From an uncultured Flavobacteriaceae bacterium (GTDB lineage Bacteria > Bacteroidota > Bacteroidia > Flavobacteriales > Flavobacteriaceae), in the NCBI GenBank assembly GCA_943789305.1, contig CALSTP010000001.1, positions 658,178 through 722,177 of the forward strand: a stretch of 64,000 nucleotides of DNA, in the 5' to 3' direction. Below, in pieces: positions 50,782-64,000 of this stretch. The position numbers were made by a program, and so were the translations under genes. The notes below the pieces were generated by a model. That model made no database searches and was not told the DNA's origin. It saw only the letters and a list, made by a program, of their open reading frames with translations. Within the stretch, counting starts at the first letter, position 1; each line of letters opens with the position of its first letter.

Positions 50782-51858
50782 ATGGTAAGGTTTGTTATTG
50801 AAAAATTTATTAGTGGAATCTTAACCCTTTTTGGTGTAGCAACTGTTGTTTTTTTCTTATTCAATGTACTTCCGGGAGATCCAGCTCAGATGGTTTTAGA
50901 TCAAAACGCTACCGAACAACAGCTTTTAAAGGTTAAAAAAAAATATGGGTTTGATTTGCCTATTGGAACTCAATATTTACTTTATTTGAATGACCTTTCA
51001 CCTCTTTCTTTTCATTCGAAAGAACCCGATGCTTTTAGTTTTTATAAAAAAGATCAATATGGAGGCTATCGAATTTTATCCTTTTCAAAAGTTGACGTTA
51101 TTTTCAAAGTTCCCTTCTTGAGAACATCTTATCAACGTCAAGGAAAAAATGTAGGCACAATTATAACTGAAACACTTCCAAACACAATGGTTTTAGCAAT
51201 TGCATCCATTGGGATTGCAATAATTTTTGGCCTTTTCTTTGGTATTGTTTCGGGAGTATACAAGGGTACATGGATTGATACTTCAATTCAAATAATCAGC
51301 ACCCTTGGAATGAGTATCCCCTCTTTTTTTAGCGCAATTCTTTTTTCATGGATTTTTGGGTATTTGTTATTTGAGTTCACCAATTTGAATATGACAGGTA
51401 GTCTCTTTGAATTGGATGATTATGGAGATCAGGTAGATTTACAATTCAAGAATTTGATTCTCCCTGCCTTTGTATTGGGAATTCGTCCCATAGCAGTAAT
51501 TGTTCAATTGGTTCGAAGCGGTCTAATTGAAGTGTTGTCACAAGATTATATTCGTACAGCAAAAGCAAAAGGATTGTCTCAACAAGCAATAATTTACAGG
51601 CATGCACTCAAAAATTCATTGAATCCGGTCATTACAGCTGTATCGGGTTTTTTTGCATCCATGCTCGCTGGGGCTGTCTTTGTCGAATATATTTTTGGGT
51701 GGCGTGGAATAGGAAAAGAAATTGTTATCGCTTTAAACACATTAGATATTCCTGTAGTGATGGGATCTGTTCTTATCATATCAACTTTATTCATATTAAT
51801 CAATATCTTTGTAGACTTGCTTTACGTGGTTATTGATCCACAGGCAAAACCATTTTAA
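50782..51858 (+). CDS. ABC transporter permease, DppB/OppB type
   Basis: The 358-residue inner-membrane permease begins with FNVLPGDPAQMVLDQNATEQQL (about 26-47), typical of dipeptide/oligopeptide permeases. The conserved permease loop EVLSQDYIRTAKAKGLSQQAIIYRHALKNSL is at about 250-280. Residues 70-115 form an extra loop compared with E. coli DppB. No DppC, ATPase or binding protein is adjacent, so partners must be elsewhere. It lies between DUF1599 and tpiA in one operon-like run. Confidence 0.85.
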   Translation: MVRFVIEKFISGILTLFGVATVVFFLFNVLPGDPAQMVLDQNATEQQLLKVKKKYGFDLPIGTQYLLYLNDLSPLSFHSKEPDAFSFYKKDQYGGYRILSFSKVDVIFKVPFLRTSYQRQGKNVGTIITETLPNTMVLAIASIGIAIIFGLFFGIVSGVYKGTWIDTSIQIISTLGMSIPSFFSAILFSWIFGYLLFEFTNLNMTGSLFELDDYGDQVDLQFKNLILPAFVLGIRPIAVIVQLVRSGLIEVLSQDYIRTAKAKGLSQQAIIYRHALKNSLNPVITAVSGFFASMLAGAVFVEYIFGWRGIGKEIVIALNTLDIPVVMGSVLIISTLFILINIFVDLLYVVIDPQAKPF

Positions 51859-51877
51859 ATTAATCTAAAAAAAGAAT

Positions 51878-57463: not shown

Positions 57464-57691
57464 ATGATTCAATCCACAAATGCATGTATTAATTGTGAAA
57501 ACTTAACAGCAGAAATAAATTGTTCTGTTCATAACCTAACTACAGAACTAGATAATGTATGCGACGATCACAATTTCAAAAGAACAATAACAAGAAATTC
57601 AAGTTGTAATAACTGTAATCATTACAAAGCTGTGGGTTGTCCTAATCCTACTTCAGCTTCCGACGGAATGCTTTGCTTTTCGTGGTCATAG
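57464..57691 (+). CDS. Cys-rich mini-protein, possible metal binder, 75 aa
   Basis: No family is recognised. The 75-residue protein has 9 Cys in paired spacing: CINC (8-11), CSVH (20-23), CDDH (33-36), CNNC (48-51) plus NHYKAVGC (near 59) and a Cys near the end. CxxC and CxxH pairs suggest a zinc ribbon or another metal-binding fold. There is no signal peptide. A promoter-like -7 and a strong terminator enclose it as a single unit just upstream of the iron locus. A role in metal sensing or storage is only a guess. Confidence 0.6.
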   Translation: MIQSTNACINCENLTAEINCSVHNLTTELDNVCDDHNFKRTITRNSSCNNCNHYKAVGCPNPTSASDGMLCFSWS

Positions 57692-57710
57692 CCCAAAAAT
57701 ACTTTTTAAA

Positions 57711-57742
57711 AAAAAGGGTCAATAAAAATTGACCCTTTTTTT
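57711..57742 (+). terminator. Rho-independent terminator after the Cys-rich mini-protein
   Basis: AAAAAGGGTCAAT pairs perfectly with ATTGACCCTTTTT (13 bp) around AAAA, followed by T residues. Confidence 0.92.
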
Positions 57743-57764: not shown

Positions 57765-57772
57765 TATATTTG
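57765..57772 (+). promoter_or_regulatory. Second, upstream -7-like element of the DUF4856 locus
   Basis: TATATTTG matches TAnnTTTG but lacks a TTG at -33. It lies upstream of the first palindrome and may be a minor promoter. Confidence 0.3.
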
Positions 57773-57787
57773 CGGTAATTTTAATCG

Positions 57788-57810
57788 TTATTTTAAATTA
57801 ATCTAAATAA
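57788..57810. promoter_or_regulatory. Palindromic operator-like box 1 upstream of the DUF4856 iron locus
   Basis: The 23-bp imperfect palindrome runs TTATTT...AAATAA. Its reverse complement is identical to box 2 at 22 of 23 positions. The 16-bp arm AATTAATCTAAATAAG (57796-57811) recurs exactly inverted at 57858-57873. It ends directly before the -33 region of the promoter. The A/T palindrome with AGATTAATT-like core is compatible with a Fur-type repressor site; that assignment is inference. Confidence 0.65.
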
Positions 57811-57813
57811 GTT

Positions 57814-57845
57814 TTGGGTTTTACTTATTTATTAGTTTATATTTG
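57814..57845 (+). promoter_or_regulatory. Promoter of the DUF4856-imelysin-HTTM-TonB receptor locus
   Basis: TTG (57814-57816) and TATATTTG (57838-57845) are 21 nt apart, lying exactly between the two palindromic boxes. Transcription would start near 57852, inside the span between the boxes. Confidence 0.65.
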
Positions 57846-57858
57846 TTCAAAATAATTC

Positions 57859-57881
57859 TTATTTAGATTAATTAAAAATAA
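57859..57881. promoter_or_regulatory. Palindromic operator-like box 2, overlapping the 5' leader
   Basis: The 23-bp imperfect palindrome starts TTATTTAGATTAATT and ends 6 nt before ATG 57888. It is the inverted near-copy of box 1. A repressor bound here would cover the start site and leader. Confidence 0.65.
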
Positions 57882-57887
57882 TATAAA

Positions 57888-59135
57888 ATGACAAAAATGT
57901 ATTTATTTATATTACCGCTGCTACTTTTTAACTGTACTAAAACAGAAATTGAAGAAGTCATTAAAGAAGTCGAAGTAGAACGAATCGTAACAAATACCGT
58001 AATTGAGACGGTAACGGTAACCAGCACTGTAGTAATTGCACCAGAGGAGTATTCCTTTACACGAAATGGTGTATCTACAGTTTACTACACTGGGCAAGCT
58101 GCACGTTTGAAGATGGCTACCGAACTGAAATCAGCTATGAATAATCTTTCTTCAACCCAAATTGGGATAGATAAAATGTTTAATCAAGGAAAAGGGTTTA
58201 GCGACTCTTCTTTAGATGCCTCAGGAAAAAAAGTTGGAAATAAAACTGCCGCCTCTCCTATTGCATCTGCTACAGTAAAACCCCTGTTTGACGAATGGAT
58301 AACTGAATTTACATCTGTAGTCATTCCTGCTATAAATAATGACATAACAGCATCTTCAGGTATAGATGGATCATATACAGAGGCAGATGGATCACGAACA
58401 GTAAAAGTGAATGCTAAAGGATTTGAATTAAATCAAATTTTTTCGAAAGGATTAATAGGAGCTTTACAAGTAGATCAAATTGTCAATGGATACCTCTCTT
58501 TTTCAAAACTTGATGGTGCAAGACAAGATCATGAAGATGATGTTTACGCCTATACCTATCCTGGCCAAGCTGAACCCTCTATTACCAAAATGGAACATTA
58601 TTGGGATGAAGGATTTGGTTATTTGCAAGGCCTAGATAATCAATTTGCATCGGGTCTCGGTGATCCCTCTACAGGAAAAGATACGGCTAATTTAAATTAT
58701 TATCTAAATAAAGTCAACAAACAAACCAATGAAGCAGGAATAACTGATCGCATATACAAGGCATTCACAATTGGAAGAGCAGCAATTACTGCTAAGGACT
58801 ATGATGAGCGAGATCGTCAAGCAACAATTATTGCCTCAGAACTTTCTAAAGTTATTGGCTACAAAGCTCAATCTTACTTGAGAGACGCTGCTGAAGATAT
58901 CGAAAATGGAGATTGGGCGGATGCATTACATGCTTTGTCTGAAGCTTATGGATTCATATTGGGGTTACAATTTACTAAAGCTACAGATGGAGCTCCTTAC
59001 CTAACTAATCAAGGGGTTAACGAACTACTCAATGAACTATCTGCTGGGACAGGTGGATTTTGGGAAAGAACTCCTGATGAATTAACAGCTATGGCTGACC
59101 AATTAGAACAAATTACGGGTTTAAGCTCAGAATAA
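57888..59135 (+). CDS. DUF4856 lipoprotein, first gene of putative iron locus
   Basis: The 415-residue protein has a lipoprotein signal (YLFILPLLLFNCTKTE, Cys at about 16). A Glu/Val-rich stretch follows (about 20-48), possibly a coiled spacer. The helical domain beginning EEYSFTRNGVSTVYYTGQ is the DUF4856 signature, and a YAYTYPGQAEPSITKMEHYWDEGFGY segment recalls imelysin-like helical proteins. It sits in the order DUF4856, imelysin, HTTM, TonB receptor, an arrangement I associate with Bacteroidota iron uptake. Regulated by the flanking palindromes, by inference. Confidence 0.78.
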   Translation: MTKMYLFILPLLLFNCTKTEIEEVIKEVEVERIVTNTVIETVTVTSTVVIAPEEYSFTRNGVSTVYYTGQAARLKMATELKSAMNNLSSTQIGIDKMFNQGKGFSDSSLDASGKKVGNKTAASPIASATVKPLFDEWITEFTSVVIPAINNDITASSGIDGSYTEADGSRTVKVNAKGFELNQIFSKGLIGALQVDQIVNGYLSFSKLDGARQDHEDDVYAYTYPGQAEPSITKMEHYWDEGFGYLQGLDNQFASGLGDPSTGKDTANLNYYLNKVNKQTNEAGITDRIYKAFTIGRAAITAKDYDERDRQATIIASELSKVIGYKAQSYLRDAAEDIENGDWADALHALSEAYGFILGLQFTKATDGAPYLTNQGVNELLNELSAGTGGFWERTPDELTAMADQLEQITGLSSE

Positions 59136-59203: not shown

Positions 59204-60361
59204 ATGAAGAAATCAATCTATTTCAAACTTGTAATACTATTATTGATTTTTCAGGGCTGTTCGGGTGATTCAGATACAATCGAAATCATTGAAAAAACTG
59301 ATCAATCAAATGTGAGCGACAACAACAGCAAGTCCACAGCTGAATTTGATCGTTCAAGCATGCTCAGTTTTTGGGCAGATAGCATCATACTCCCTTCAAT
59401 AATTGGTTTTGAAAATGAATTGAATATCTTCAATGAAAATGTAGCAAATTTTACCGCTAACCCAAATGCAAATAACCTATCGCTGTTGCGTGAGCAATGG
59501 CTGACGACTTACAAAAAATGGCAATACGTTGAAATGTTTGATATGGGCGTTGCTGAAGAAATTTTTTTTAAAAATCGGATGAATATTTTCCCGGCCAATG
59601 TAGAACGCATAGAACGTAATATCAAAAATCAAAAATTTAATTTTGACGAATCAGCAAATTTTGCAGCTCAGGGATTCACAGCTCTCGATTATTTGTTGTT
59701 TGGTGTTGAACAGGAAGATGATACAATCCTTACAAAATATTCCGATTCGAGTTTAAATTACGATGACTATTTGATTCAGGTTACATCAAAAATGCTAGAG
59801 CTAACTGTTTTAGTAAAAGCACAATGGGAAGGTGATTATAGAGATAGTTTTGTGCAATCAACCGACAACAATGCAACCTCAAGTATCAACATGATGCTCA
59901 ATGACTTTGTCTATTACTTCGAAAAAGGATATCGTGCGAACAAGTTTGGAATTCCTGCAGGTGTTTTTTCTGGAGGTCCACTCCCAAATAGAGTTGAAGC
60001 CTATCATGGTGAAATGTACTCAAAAATCCTCTCACTTGAAGCCACTACTGCGATCGAAAACTTCTTCAATGGAATTGCTTACAATGACCCTGAAACTTTA
60101 GGACCAAGCATAAAAGATTATCTTGATTTTGTAGAGTCAGGTTTGGCTGAAAGACTCAGCGAACGCATTAACGAAAAACTGCAAGGCGGACGAACAAAAA
60201 TTAACGAGTTAAACACGAATTTCATAAAACAGATTGAAGATAACAATACCTCAATGCTCCATACCTACGATGCAATTCAGAGTACGGTTATTCTATTCAA
60301 GGTAGACATGCTTCAAAAACTCAATGTAAGTGTCGATTATGCTGATGCAGATGGCGATTAA
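59204..60361 (+). CDS. Imelysin-like (M75 family) lipoprotein
   Basis: The 385-residue lipoprotein (ILLLIFQGCSGDSD, Cys at about 19) has an imelysin/ICMP-like helical domain with LREQWLTTYKKWQYVEMFDMG (about 98-118). GFTALDYLLFGVEQ (about 160-173) stands where imelysins carry GxHxxE; here the His and Glu are Thr and Asp-Tyr. FGIPAGVFSGGPLPNRVEAYHG (about 248-269) is also conserved in the family. Members are iron-regulated and bind iron or haem-related ligands at the outer surface. The changed motif suggests altered metal contact. HTTM follows 22 nt later. Confidence 0.85.
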   Translation: MKKSIYFKLVILLLIFQGCSGDSDTIEIIEKTDQSNVSDNNSKSTAEFDRSSMLSFWADSIILPSIIGFENELNIFNENVANFTANPNANNLSLLREQWLTTYKKWQYVEMFDMGVAEEIFFKNRMNIFPANVERIERNIKNQKFNFDESANFAAQGFTALDYLLFGVEQEDDTILTKYSDSSLNYDDYLIQVTSKMLELTVLVKAQWEGDYRDSFVQSTDNNATSSINMMLNDFVYYFEKGYRANKFGIPAGVFSGGPLPNRVEAYHGEMYSKILSLEATTAIENFFNGIAYNDPETLGPSIKDYLDFVESGLAERLSERINEKLQGGRTKINELNTNFIKQIEDNNTSMLHTYDAIQSTVILFKVDMLQKLNVSVDYADADGD

Positions 60362-60383: not shown

Positions 60384-61760
60384 GTGTTTAAAAGTTATCT
60401 AAACGAATCCAAAATACACCCGGCCCCTTTGGCTGTCTTTAGAATTCTTTTTGGATCCTTGATGCTAACTACCCTCATTCGTTTTTGGGCAAATGGATGG
60501 ATTCATACACTTTATATTGAGCCAGAATTTCACTTTAAATACTATGGATTTTCTTGGGTAACTGATTTCGGAAATTACACCTATTTACTTTATGTGATTT
60601 GCATCATATCTTCAATAGGAATTATTTTGGGATATCGCTACAGACTATCCATTTTCTTGCTTTTTCTTCTTTTTACTTATACGGAACTCATTGATAAAAC
60701 AACCTATCTCAATCATTACTACTTCACAAGCTGTATTGCACTCTTACTCTGTTTTCTTCCCGCCGCACATTATTTCTCATTAGATGCATTGAAAAAGAAA
60801 AAAACAATTGAAGCTATTCCATCTTGGATGGTTGATGGCATTAAACTCTTTTTGTGTATTGTTTATTTTTACGCGGGAATTGCAAAAATTAATTCGGATT
60901 GGTTAATCGAAGCACAACCACTTTCAATATGGTTAACCTCAAAATACGATATCCCCTTAATTGGTGAGTTACTAAAGTACAAATTGATACACTACACAGC
61001 AAGCTGGTCAGGAATGCTGTATGATGTGTTTATCTCTTTTTTTCTCCTATACCCTAAAACTCGTAAAATTGCTTTTCTTTTTGTGCTTCTGTTCCACATA
61101 ATGACAAAGGTCTTTTTTCCTTCAATAGGAATGTTTCCATTCATCATGATCTTCGGAGCCACAATATTTTTTGATGTGAAATGGCATAAAAACATACTTC
61201 TTCATCTCCATTATTTAGGTATAAAATTGACTCAAAAGTTTGATTTTTTAAAGTCTAAATTAACTTCAAAAAAATCCATCACTTTATTTAAGCCAAAAAA
61301 ACATGTCCTTCCAATATTTCTCACTTTCTTTTTTATTCAACTGCTTTTACCGTTTCGTTATTTCGCTTATCCAGGAGAATTATTTTGGAATGAACAAGGC
61401 TATCGTTTTTCATGGCGTGTTATGCTTATGGAAAAGAAGGGGTACACCACTTTTAAAATAAAAGATAGCGTTAGTCAAAAAACTTTTTATGTAGATAATA
61501 CTGATTTTCTTACACCGTTCCAAGAGCGGCAAATGAGTTTTCAACCAGATTTTATTCTAGAGTATGCACACTATTTAGCTGATCATTTTGAAAACCAAGG
61601 TCATCAAAACATACAAGTTTTTACCGATAGTTTTGTAGCATTGAATGGGCGTCCAAGCCAGAGATTCATTGATCCTAGTACAGATCTTTCAAAAGAAATA
61701 GAATCATTTAAACACAAAAAATGGGTACTTCCCTTAGAAGATGAAATATACGGTTTGTAG
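60384..61760 (+). CDS. HTTM / vitamin K-dependent gamma-carboxylase-like membrane protein
   Basis: The 458-residue protein starts at GTG 60384 (MFKSYLNESKIHPAPLAVFRILFG), with several transmembrane helices across residues 15-300 and a C-terminal soluble part. DKTTYLNHYYF (about 104-114) resembles the NH-containing segment around the active-site His of human GGCX, and FYAGIAKINSDWL (about 162-174) resembles the AGxKKLDADW segment carrying its catalytic Lys (here about Lys168). HTTM proteins occur widely in bacteria without known activity. Placement between imelysin and a TonB receptor suggests an envelope modification or uptake step. Confidence 0.82.
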   Translation: MFKSYLNESKIHPAPLAVFRILFGSLMLTTLIRFWANGWIHTLYIEPEFHFKYYGFSWVTDFGNYTYLLYVICIISSIGIILGYRYRLSIFLLFLLFTYTELIDKTTYLNHYYFTSCIALLLCFLPAAHYFSLDALKKKKTIEAIPSWMVDGIKLFLCIVYFYAGIAKINSDWLIEAQPLSIWLTSKYDIPLIGELLKYKLIHYTASWSGMLYDVFISFFLLYPKTRKIAFLFVLLFHIMTKVFFPSIGMFPFIMIFGATIFFDVKWHKNILLHLHYLGIKLTQKFDFLKSKLTSKKSITLFKPKKHVLPIFLTFFFIQLLLPFRYFAYPGELFWNEQGYRFSWRVMLMEKKGYTTFKIKDSVSQKTFYVDNTDFLTPFQERQMSFQPDFILEYAHYLADHFENQGHQNIQVFTDSFVALNGRPSQRFIDPSTDLSKEIESFKHKKWVLPLEDEIYGL

Positions 61761-64000
61761 TTACTTGCTTTTTTTGTTTTGGACATCCAGTTTTTCCCAA
61801 TATCAAATTAAATCAAATATTCAACTTGAAGGAGATAATGAGTTTAATTCTTCCGTAAAAATTTACAACAAAGCAAGAGGTTTTGTAAATGAAGTGAATG
61901 AAGGAGAAACTTTTTTTTTACAAAGTAACATTCCAATAGATACATACATTTTTATCGCTCAAGGGTACGATATTCTCGAAAAGAAAGTAGATTTTACCCT
62001 AGAGAACACCTTAACTTTAGTTTTATCTAGACAATTAGAAAAATTAAACGAAGTTATTTTAAGTGCAAAAAAGAAAGAAATATTTGCCTTAAAAAGAATG
62101 CAGGACTATGAAAAAACAACCATCTATGCAGGTAAAAAAACCGAGGTAATTCTTGTCGAACAATCCATGGCTAATTTAGCAGCAAATAATGCACGACAAA
62201 TATTCAATCAGGTGCCAGGTCTTAATATTTACCAAAGTGACGATGCGGGATTACAATTGCACATAGGAGGAAGAGGATTAGATCCTAACCGAACCTCGAA
62301 CTTCAATACCCGTCAAAACGGATATGACATTAGTGCAGATGTTTTGGGTTATCCAGAAAGTTATTACACTCCCCCTGCAGAGGCCATTGATGAAATTCAG
62401 ATAATTCGAGGTGCCGCATCATTACAATACGGAACTCAATTTGGAGGACTTGTCAATTTTAAATTAAAAGATGCTACCACCTACCGACCCATTGCTGGAG
62501 TTGTACGAAATACTTTGGGGTCCAATGGGTTGTACACAAACTATACCCAACTAAGTGGACGTCTTGGGAAATGGAAATACATAAGTTTTTTAAACATCAA
62601 AAAAGGAGATGGTTTTCGCCCAAACTCTGGTTTTGATTCAACGAATCTATTTACTAAAATCACCCATGATTTTAATGATAACACCAAAGTTAGTGCCGAA
62701 GTCACTTATTTAGATTACCTAGCACAACAAGCAGGTGGACTAACCGACAATATTTTCAAAGAAAACCCATACCAAAGTAATCGAGAACGCAATTGGTTTG
62801 GTCTCAATTGGTTTCTTTACAACATCAAATTTGAGCATACATTTTCAAAAAAATCGAATATGAGTATTAATGTATTTGGTTTAGATGCAGAACGAAAAGC
62901 CATCGGATTTCGATCGAACCGAGTAGATCAAATTGATTCCAACGAAGAACGGGACCTTATTAAAGGAGATTTTAACAACTATGGAATAGAAATTAGGTGG
63001 TTACAAAACTATTCTCTTGGAAGTAAAAAAGCAGTTTTTCTTGTCGGCGGAAAGTATTATAAGGCCAAAAACACTTCTGCTCAAGGACCTGGTTCTGCAT
63101 CAAGTGATGCCGATTTTAGTTTCTACAAAAATCGTTATCCAAATTACAACCAACAATCTGACTATACTTATCCAAATAAAAATCTTGCTTTGTTTGTTGA
63201 AAATATCTTTTATTTAAGTGAAAAATTATCCTTAACTCCTGGAGTGCGCTATGAAAATATTTTAACCTCTAGCGATGGGAGCTTTAAAAAAATAAATACA
63301 GATGCAGCTGGGAATGTAATCCTCAATGAAACAATAAGTGACAACGAGTCACGCAAGCGCTCATTTGCATTGTTGGGTCTTGGTACGAGCTACAAAGCGA
63401 ACAAATCACTTGAACTTTATGCAAATTTTTCCCAGAATTATCGCTCGGTAACTTTTACAGATATCAGTATCATCAATCCGGCCTTTACAATTAACCCCAA
63501 TATAACTGATGAAAAAGGGAATACTTTTGATTTAGGTATCCGTGGAAAAATAAAAAAGTTACTGTCTTTTGACCTCAATCTTTTTAATATTTCTTATCAA
63601 AACCGAATTGGGTTTGTTCAAAAAGTAGATCGCTACAATTCTGTTAAAAGTGAACGAGGAAATGTAGGAAATGCTCGACTCTATGGAATTGAATCCCTTA
63701 TGGATATTAATTTTGCTAGTTGGTTGAAAATGGATAACACCAAATATGCCCTCAGCAGCTTTCTCAATTATTCTTACATTAATTCAGAATACATTTCTAC
63801 AGAAAAAGTTGGTGTTAAGGGAAACAAGGTAGAGTTCGTTCCAACTGATAATCTCAAAGCAGGCCTGATGTTTGGATATAAAAACTTGGCTTTGAACTTT
63901 CAATACAGTCATGTATCTCAGCAGTTTACCGATGCCTCCAATGCAGTAGAGGGATCGATCAGTGGTGTTATTGGACAAATTCCTACCTATAACTTACTTG
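61741..64000 (+). CDS. TonB-dependent receptor, FecA-like, 3' end outside window
   Basis: ATG 61741 overlaps the HTTM gene by 20 nt and the frame stays open to the right edge (about 753 codons seen), which is why the track omits it. A signal peptide (MKYTVCSYLLFLFWTSSFSQ) is followed by a carboxypeptidase-like fold (about 21-100) and a plug domain with QIFNQVPGLNIYQSDDAG, IGGRGLDPNRTSNF and IIRGAASLQYGTQFGGLVNF. The barrel follows, with typical strands such as KLSLTPGVRYENI. It resembles receptors for ferric citrate or siderophores. It imports the ligand across the outer membrane using TonB energy. Confidence 0.9.
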   Translation, partial: MKYTVCSYLLFLFWTSSFSQYQIKSNIQLEGDNEFNSSVKIYNKARGFVNEVNEGETFFLQSNIPIDTYIFIAQGYDILEKKVDFTLENTLTLVLSRQLEKLNEVILSAKKKEIFALKRMQDYEKTTIYAGKKTEVILVEQSMANLAANNARQIFNQVPGLNIYQSDDAGLQLHIGGRGLDPNRTSNFNTRQNGYDISADVLGYPESYYTPPAEAIDEIQIIRGAASLQYGTQFGGLVNFKLKDATTYRPIAGVVRNTLGSNGLYTNYTQLSGRLGKWKYISFLNIKKGDGFRPNSGFDSTNLFTKITHDFNDNTKVSAEVTYLDYLAQQAGGLTDNIFKENPYQSNRERNWFGLNWFLYNIKFEHTFSKKSNMSINVFGLDAERKAIGFRSNRVDQIDSNEERDLIKGDFNNYGIEIRWLQNYSLGSKKAVFLVGGKYYKAKNTSAQGPGSASSDADFSFYKNRYPNYNQQSDYTYPNKNLALFVENIFYLSEKLSLTPGVRYENILTSSDGSFKKINTDAAGNVILNETISDNESRKRSFALLGLGTSYKANKSLELYANFSQNYRSVTFTDISIINPAFTINPNITDEKGNTFDLGIRGKIKKLLSFDLNLFNISYQNRIGFVQKVDRYNSVKSERGNVGNARLYGIESLMDINFASWLKMDNTKYALSSFLNYSYINSEYISTEKVGVKGNKVEFVPTDNLKAGLMFGYKNLALNFQYSHVSQQFTDASNAVEGSISGVIGQIPTYNLL

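Follow-up and report, generated by a model that had tools for sequence, protein, structure and literature searches.

The operon that begins with a DUF4856 gene in the window (the whole stretch of 64,000 nucleotides analysed here) has a promoter flanked by two nearly identical 23-bp boxes (Table 1), which are very probably Fur operators: Fur bound at both sites would sandwich the promoter and repress the operon when iron is plentiful. The sites themselves, their conservation, the genes beside them, their match in sequence to a Fur box already published for a flavobacterial species, and the geometry of the promoter were all observed directly; from these we infer binding by the organism's single Fur, a response to iron and occlusion of RNA polymerase.

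Table 1 Boxes, promoter elements and operon genes, in window positions (position 1 is the first nucleotide of the window)
Feature	Position	Strand	Evidence and remarks
Box 1, upstream Fur-box-like site	57788–57810	+	TTATTTTAAATTAATCTAAATAA; abuts the -33 element; 27.6 bits; kept in orthologues
-33 element TTG, Bacteroidota-type promoter	57814–57816	+	sequence
-7 element TATATTTG	57838–57845	+	begins 50 bp past the box 1 start (most relatives: 48)
Box 2, downstream Fur-box-like site	57859–57881	-	TTATTTAGATTAATTAAAAATAA; 27.9 bits; kept in orthologues
DUF4856 lipoprotein-like gene, first in operon	57888–59135	+	Pfam PF16148, E=2.9e-86
Imelysin (Peptidase_M75) gene	59204–60361	+	Pfam PF09375, E=4.8e-24
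HTTM / vitamin K-dependent carboxylase-like membrane protein	60384–61760	+	PF05090, PF22777
TonB-dependent receptor, continuing about 164 bases beyond the window end	61741–64000	+	PF00593, PF07715

Direct reading of the two boxes bore out the main description in an earlier note on this DNA: box 1 and the reverse complement of box 2 agree at 22 of 23 bases, and an exact 16-bp inverted repeat joins positions 57796–57811 and 57858–57873. An inverted-repeat search returned 24-nt arms (57788–57811 and 57858–57881) that are 96% complementary. The boxes had also been called palindromes in opposite orientation. Each is indeed dyadic about position 12, imperfectly so, with 8 of 11 pairs; the opposite orientation holds for the window pair and is mixed in relatives, and since the boxes are near-palindromic it carries no demonstrated meaning. 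The ends of box 2 and box 1 lie 6 and 77 bp, respectively, upstream of the DUF4856 ATG, which puts both no more than about 100 bp from the start codon, like the published type. Under a family motif model learned from other genomes, the two boxes are the sole strong sites in the 64-kb window, the next best scoring 11.5 bits.

That such an arrangement is an AT-rich inverted repeat that arose by chance and has no regulatory role is almost certainly wrong. AT-rich DNA surrounds the boxes, and near-matches that differ at three bases abound in the window genome, but an inverted 23-mer pair (at most one mismatch, at most 120 bp) never arose when the whole window was dinucleotide-shuffled 100 times, none of 8256 shuffled versions of the local 198 bp gave a comparable pair, and the family-wide conservation described below already refutes it. 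Two further resemblances were seen in the window: a weak third box-like match (57833–57855, 8.0 bits) over the -7 element between the boxes, and an exact second copy of the 16-bp core, TTTAAATTAATCTAAA, between a permease gene and tpiA (51854–51869). The latter is without the outer arms, scores 7.6 bits and is probably a chance occurrence.

The window belongs to a 2.08-Mb assembly of a marine flavobacterium; at this locus, Candidatus Arcticimaribacter is its nearest named relative, with 90% identity. The best NCBIfam match of the TonB receptor in the operon is FecA, below the cutoff; past the window end, the receptor gene is followed by DUF2271 and then by a PepSY_TM-flavodoxin gene. The DUF4856 protein gave a weak match, again below the cutoff, to NF038033 (an FEA1-related lipoprotein model, E=4e-4), a similarity that hints at a direct role for DUF4856 in iron handling; DegV-type matches from a PDB search were marginal and were not used. 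Upstream of the operon, a perfect hairpin of 15 bp flanked by A and T (57709–57742, AAAAAAAGGGTCAAT / ATTGACCCTTTTTTT) is likely a bidirectional terminator that bounds it, and an ORF for a cysteine-rich 75-aa protein with several CxxC-like spacings lies just upstream on the same strand (57464–57691).

The promoter that the earlier note had placed between the boxes, TTG-N21-TATATTTG, is present as described. A sigma-70 promoter scan gave no signal above shuffles, as expected of a Bacteroidota promoter, and an Rfam search of the leader found no RNA element. Transcription is predicted to start at about 57850–57853, and box 2 probably covers the first transcribed bases and the leader of the DUF4856 gene. 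The upstream box stands in a strikingly constant register, the -7 element of the collected sites beginning 47–49 bp past its start: where collected boxes have a -7 element TANNTTTG 47–50 bp past the box start, it is at exactly 48 bp in 54 of 73 cases, with a near-zero background at the neighbouring positions. The pattern of box, TTG and TANNTTTG at fixed spacing occurs in 73 of 201 Flavobacteriaceae genomes and its reversed control in 0, and nearly all matches are of equal length, though the pattern permits several. The downstream box, by comparison, floats, at 12–25 bp past the start of the -7 element, and some other promoters carry a box between their -33 and -7 elements or shortly past the start. 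A box in either the spacer or the leader would be well placed to repress by occluding RNA polymerase. A second TATATTTG, with no -33 partner, lies upstream of box 1 (57765–57772) and is kept in the close relatives L037 and L051; it is a possible tandem promoter.

The first check proposed for the motif, its presence at orthologous loci, was passed. Relatives of the DUF4856 gene were taken from 34 named loci and were found in 67 of 201 family genomes, and at least one box was found in 54 of 55 DUF4856 upstream regions, with two boxes in 47 of the 55. In these orthologues the conserved unit is TTATTTAGAYTNANTNTAAATAA, a dyad of 23 bp whose strong outer arms read TTATTTA and TAAATAA. The combinations of box orientation are mixed in relatives. 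Some promoters have a single box, and box-to-box spacings, among them 48, 61–64, 67 and 72 bp, show clusters near 44, 61–66 and 72 bp.

Across genomes, the strict pattern TTATTTAGANTNANTNWAAATAA occurs in 166 of 201 Flavobacteriaceae genomes and the reversed pattern in none of the 201. In a phylum sample it was found in nearly all Flavobacteriaceae and in 8 of 8 genomes of another Flavobacteriales family, and was patchy elsewhere. Searches with the 16-bp core at up to three mismatches were abandoned as too loose, with matches equal to those of the reversed control. Allowing three mismatches in the 23-bp form brought no improvement, and informative results came from the exact or near-exact 23 bp alone. 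We fetched 80 further stretches, with the already-known DUF4856 sites omitted, and inspected 110 sites, of which 108 are intergenic. The families flanking the 110 sites, in raw counts, are led by TonB-dependent receptors (32), followed by Porin_O_P-like proteins (17), DUF6607 (13), DUF6686 (13), Tex (8), IMP dehydrogenase (6), NqrA (5), T9SS plug (5), DUF4856 (4, the known sites being left out), imelysin (2) and AraC (2). In the window genome, the best boxes beyond the pair lie by guaB, behind a short stub, between nqrA and a T9SS-plug-like gene, between hemA and AraC-hemH and at feoAB, with a weaker one before a cytochrome c gene. The second proposed check, a search at other iron genes, thus found the motif by TonB receptor, imelysin, feoAB and heme-synthesis genes. 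Against a Fur reading, some sites are flanked by tex, guaB or T9SS plug genes, which have no obvious link to iron.

Several of these loci have features of their own. A perfect box in L090 (1501–1625; G000:C1:731624 onward) stands 3 bp ahead of a 32-aa signal-peptide-like stub, MKKLIITFTFLISILSSAQQTSLQNNILGLGN, beside guaB; since a box on the guaB side elsewhere often serves a TonB receptor, the stub may be the relic of a lost one. In four genomes (L254, L200, L239 and L274) a lysine- and cysteine-rich protein of 50–57 aa (for example MGKKQKKSNNHKKGKLKTLAPKGCKTNCCKKYKKSESKRCKRCPCYDLAKKVA) is encoded 28–64 bp downstream of a box, and a Pfam search with these four proteins found no match. DUF6607 and TonB receptor genes diverge around a box in L205, L209, L212, L235, L240, L245, L250, L255, L268 and L275, frequently with another box some 44 bp away and with opposed promoters that overlap.

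The window genome encodes one Fur-family protein (PF01475, Pfam E=2.6e-26), its gene (G000:C1:1354055) lying beside purA, and 198 of 201 family genomes have Fur. The three box-bearing genomes without Fur are also without purA, and the fur region is therefore probably missing from those assemblies. The earlier note had marked its assignment of the boxes to Fur as inference; the iron-related neighbours, the conservation at orthologues and the match to a published Fur box now support that assignment well at the level of sequence. In Riemerella anatipestifer, Guo et al. (2017) described the Fur box ATTTAGAATTATTCTAAAT, computed from regulated promoters, and promoters with such boxes were bound by Fur in EMSA, the gel shifts being made on whole promoter fragments (PMC5609570). 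Binding to a promoter with ATTTAGAATTATCCTAAAT is Mn-dependent, with a Kd of 4.3 nM (PMC10986502). A search of the open-access literature found no footprint of this box, and a later paper names an E. coli-type box for R. anatipestifer (PMC7976709), which counts against the Fur reading. Under a model trained only on the sites collected here, the published consensus ATTTAGAATTATTCTAAAT scores 25.2 bits, and 7 of 11 published R. anatipestifer sites exceed 14 bits, a score reached by 0 of 200,000 random 19-mers. The cores of the window boxes score 21.3 and 21.6 bits and match the published consensus.

Operators of the DtxR, IdeR and MntR regulators are palindromes with TTTAG...CTAAA-like half-sites, and the core TTTAGATTAATCTAAA of the window boxes, which we take to resemble DtxR-family operators, raises the question of whether a metalloregulator of the DtxR/MntR family reads them. 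A single DtxR-family gene is encoded in the window genome, back to back with a divergent TonB receptor gene, and in a genome of the same genus such a DtxR–TonB receptor pair lies just past the DUF4856 operon. The distribution of the boxes is nevertheless independent of a DtxR-family gene, and we rejected this reading as highly improbable: the boxes at DUF4856 are kept in four genomes without PF01325 (G020, G056, G096 and G187), strict boxes occur in 11 of 20 listed genomes without PF01325, the DtxR gene of the window genome itself has a different inverted repeat and no adjacent box, and the matching published box is a Fur box. Since boxes are kept in genomes without DtxR, Fur is the best candidate. 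In L004, a DtxR-family gene and a TonB receptor gene diverge from a region that holds an exact 9-7-9 inverted repeat, TGCAAAACT-AATAAAA-AGTTTTGCA (1446–1470), which differs from the Fur box and is a candidate DtxR operator.

Another iron regulator, such as the MerR-like MliR or the hemH-linked AraC protein, might instead read the boxes and activate from the fixed upstream one, which we regard as very unlikely. The constant register of that box to the promoter would fit an activator, and a box separates hemA from AraC-hemH; moreover, loss of MliR in Bizionia argentinensis, a member of the Flavobacteriaceae, lowers expression of a TonB receptor gene, an imelysin-like gene and a FeoB-associated gene, types that overlap the targets here (PMC9478572). 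The part of that source available reports no MliR binding site, and the AraC gene adjoins only a few sites. Boxes over the promoter spacer or leader fit repression, and the Riemerella match points to Fur.

The earlier note had suggested that paired sites of this kind suit cooperative repression or looping. In a loop, two Fur-bound boxes would touch across the promoter, and both the spacing and the opposite orientation would matter. Two boxes at 47 of 55 DUF4856 promoters and the clustering of spacings near 44, 61–66 and 72 bp speak for such a repression loop, but we judge it quite improbable: DNA of 50–70 bp is too stiff to loop readily unless a bending protein helps, single-box promoters exist, spacings of 48, 61, 64, 67 and 72 bp do not fall on one helical phase, and orientation combinations are mixed. 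Given the last two observations, looping and a role for opposite orientation are unsupported. Spacing classes are seen, not one helical phase, and the promoter register accounts for box 1 alone, whose distance to the promoter is the one that stays fixed while spacing and orientation vary. Because a fixed 48-bp upstream register is also expected of an activator site, activation from box 1 is possible. Box 1, which in many genes and genomes is fixed 48 bp before the -7 element and centred near -48, would then both activate and repress, and the movable box 2 would repress; the activating contact with RNA polymerase would be made by the same regulator or by a partner such as MliR. We hold this to be unlikely; if true, it would describe a dual-site iron switch on the type of promoter read by the unusual Bacteroidota sigma factor.

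Repression by Fur at both boxes is the reading we prefer. When iron is plentiful, metal-loaded Fur dimers would occupy both boxes, box 1 lying immediately before the -33 element and box 2 shortly past the transcription start. With the promoter sandwiched between them, the dimers would keep RNA polymerase off the DUF4856–imelysin–HTTM–TonB operon. When iron is scarce, Fur would depart and the operon would be transcribed.

Iron regulation in the Flavobacteriaceae is hard to study genetically, and deletion of fur has been attempted without success in both F. psychrophilum (PMC9331221, PMC9618737) and F. columnare. A sharp, conserved operator can be scanned for in any genome, so the Fur regulon becomes predictable without a mutant. 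The fixed register to a -33/-7 promoter offers a clean test of how a repressor acts on Bacteroidota promoters, and the gene neighbourhoods suggest iron-linked roles for the uncharacterised families DUF4856, DUF6607 and DUF6686.

The boxes can be set beside four known systems. The classical E. coli Fur box GATAATGATAATCATTATC is likewise an AT-rich 19-bp inverted repeat for a Fur-family repressor that overlaps iron-uptake promoters, but its sequence is unrelated under our model (-32 bits, p about 0.25 against random); the window boxes do not match GATAATGATAATCATTATC, and identity with the E. coli type was rejected. DtxR/IdeR/MntR operators have similar half-sites, yet boxes of the window type occur without a DtxR-family gene. 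The MliR system of Bizionia argentinensis comes from the same bacterial family and overlaps in target types (TonB receptor, imelysin and Feo-associated); MliR is a MerR-like activator without a metal site and is not known to be linked to the box motif (PMC9478572). The closest counterpart is the Fur box of R. anatipestifer (Weeksellaceae, Flavobacteriales), a member of another family than the window organism, which has the same 19-bp core ATTTAGAATTATTCTAAAT as the window boxes and shares with them a location at most 100 bp from the start codon, TonB receptor targets and -33/-7 promoters. With this box published in 2017, operators of Bacteroidota iron regulators are better defined than the earlier note had held. 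The window type differs in its 23-bp unit (TTATTTA-N9-TAAATAA), in the pair around the promoter and in the constant 48 bp that separate the upstream box from the -7 element; box pairing and fixed register are undescribed in the open-access literature searched, and a description may exist elsewhere. The operator type is one already published for a single flavobacterial species, to which the present analysis adds the 23-bp form, its spread across the family, a target set and a fixed promoter architecture.
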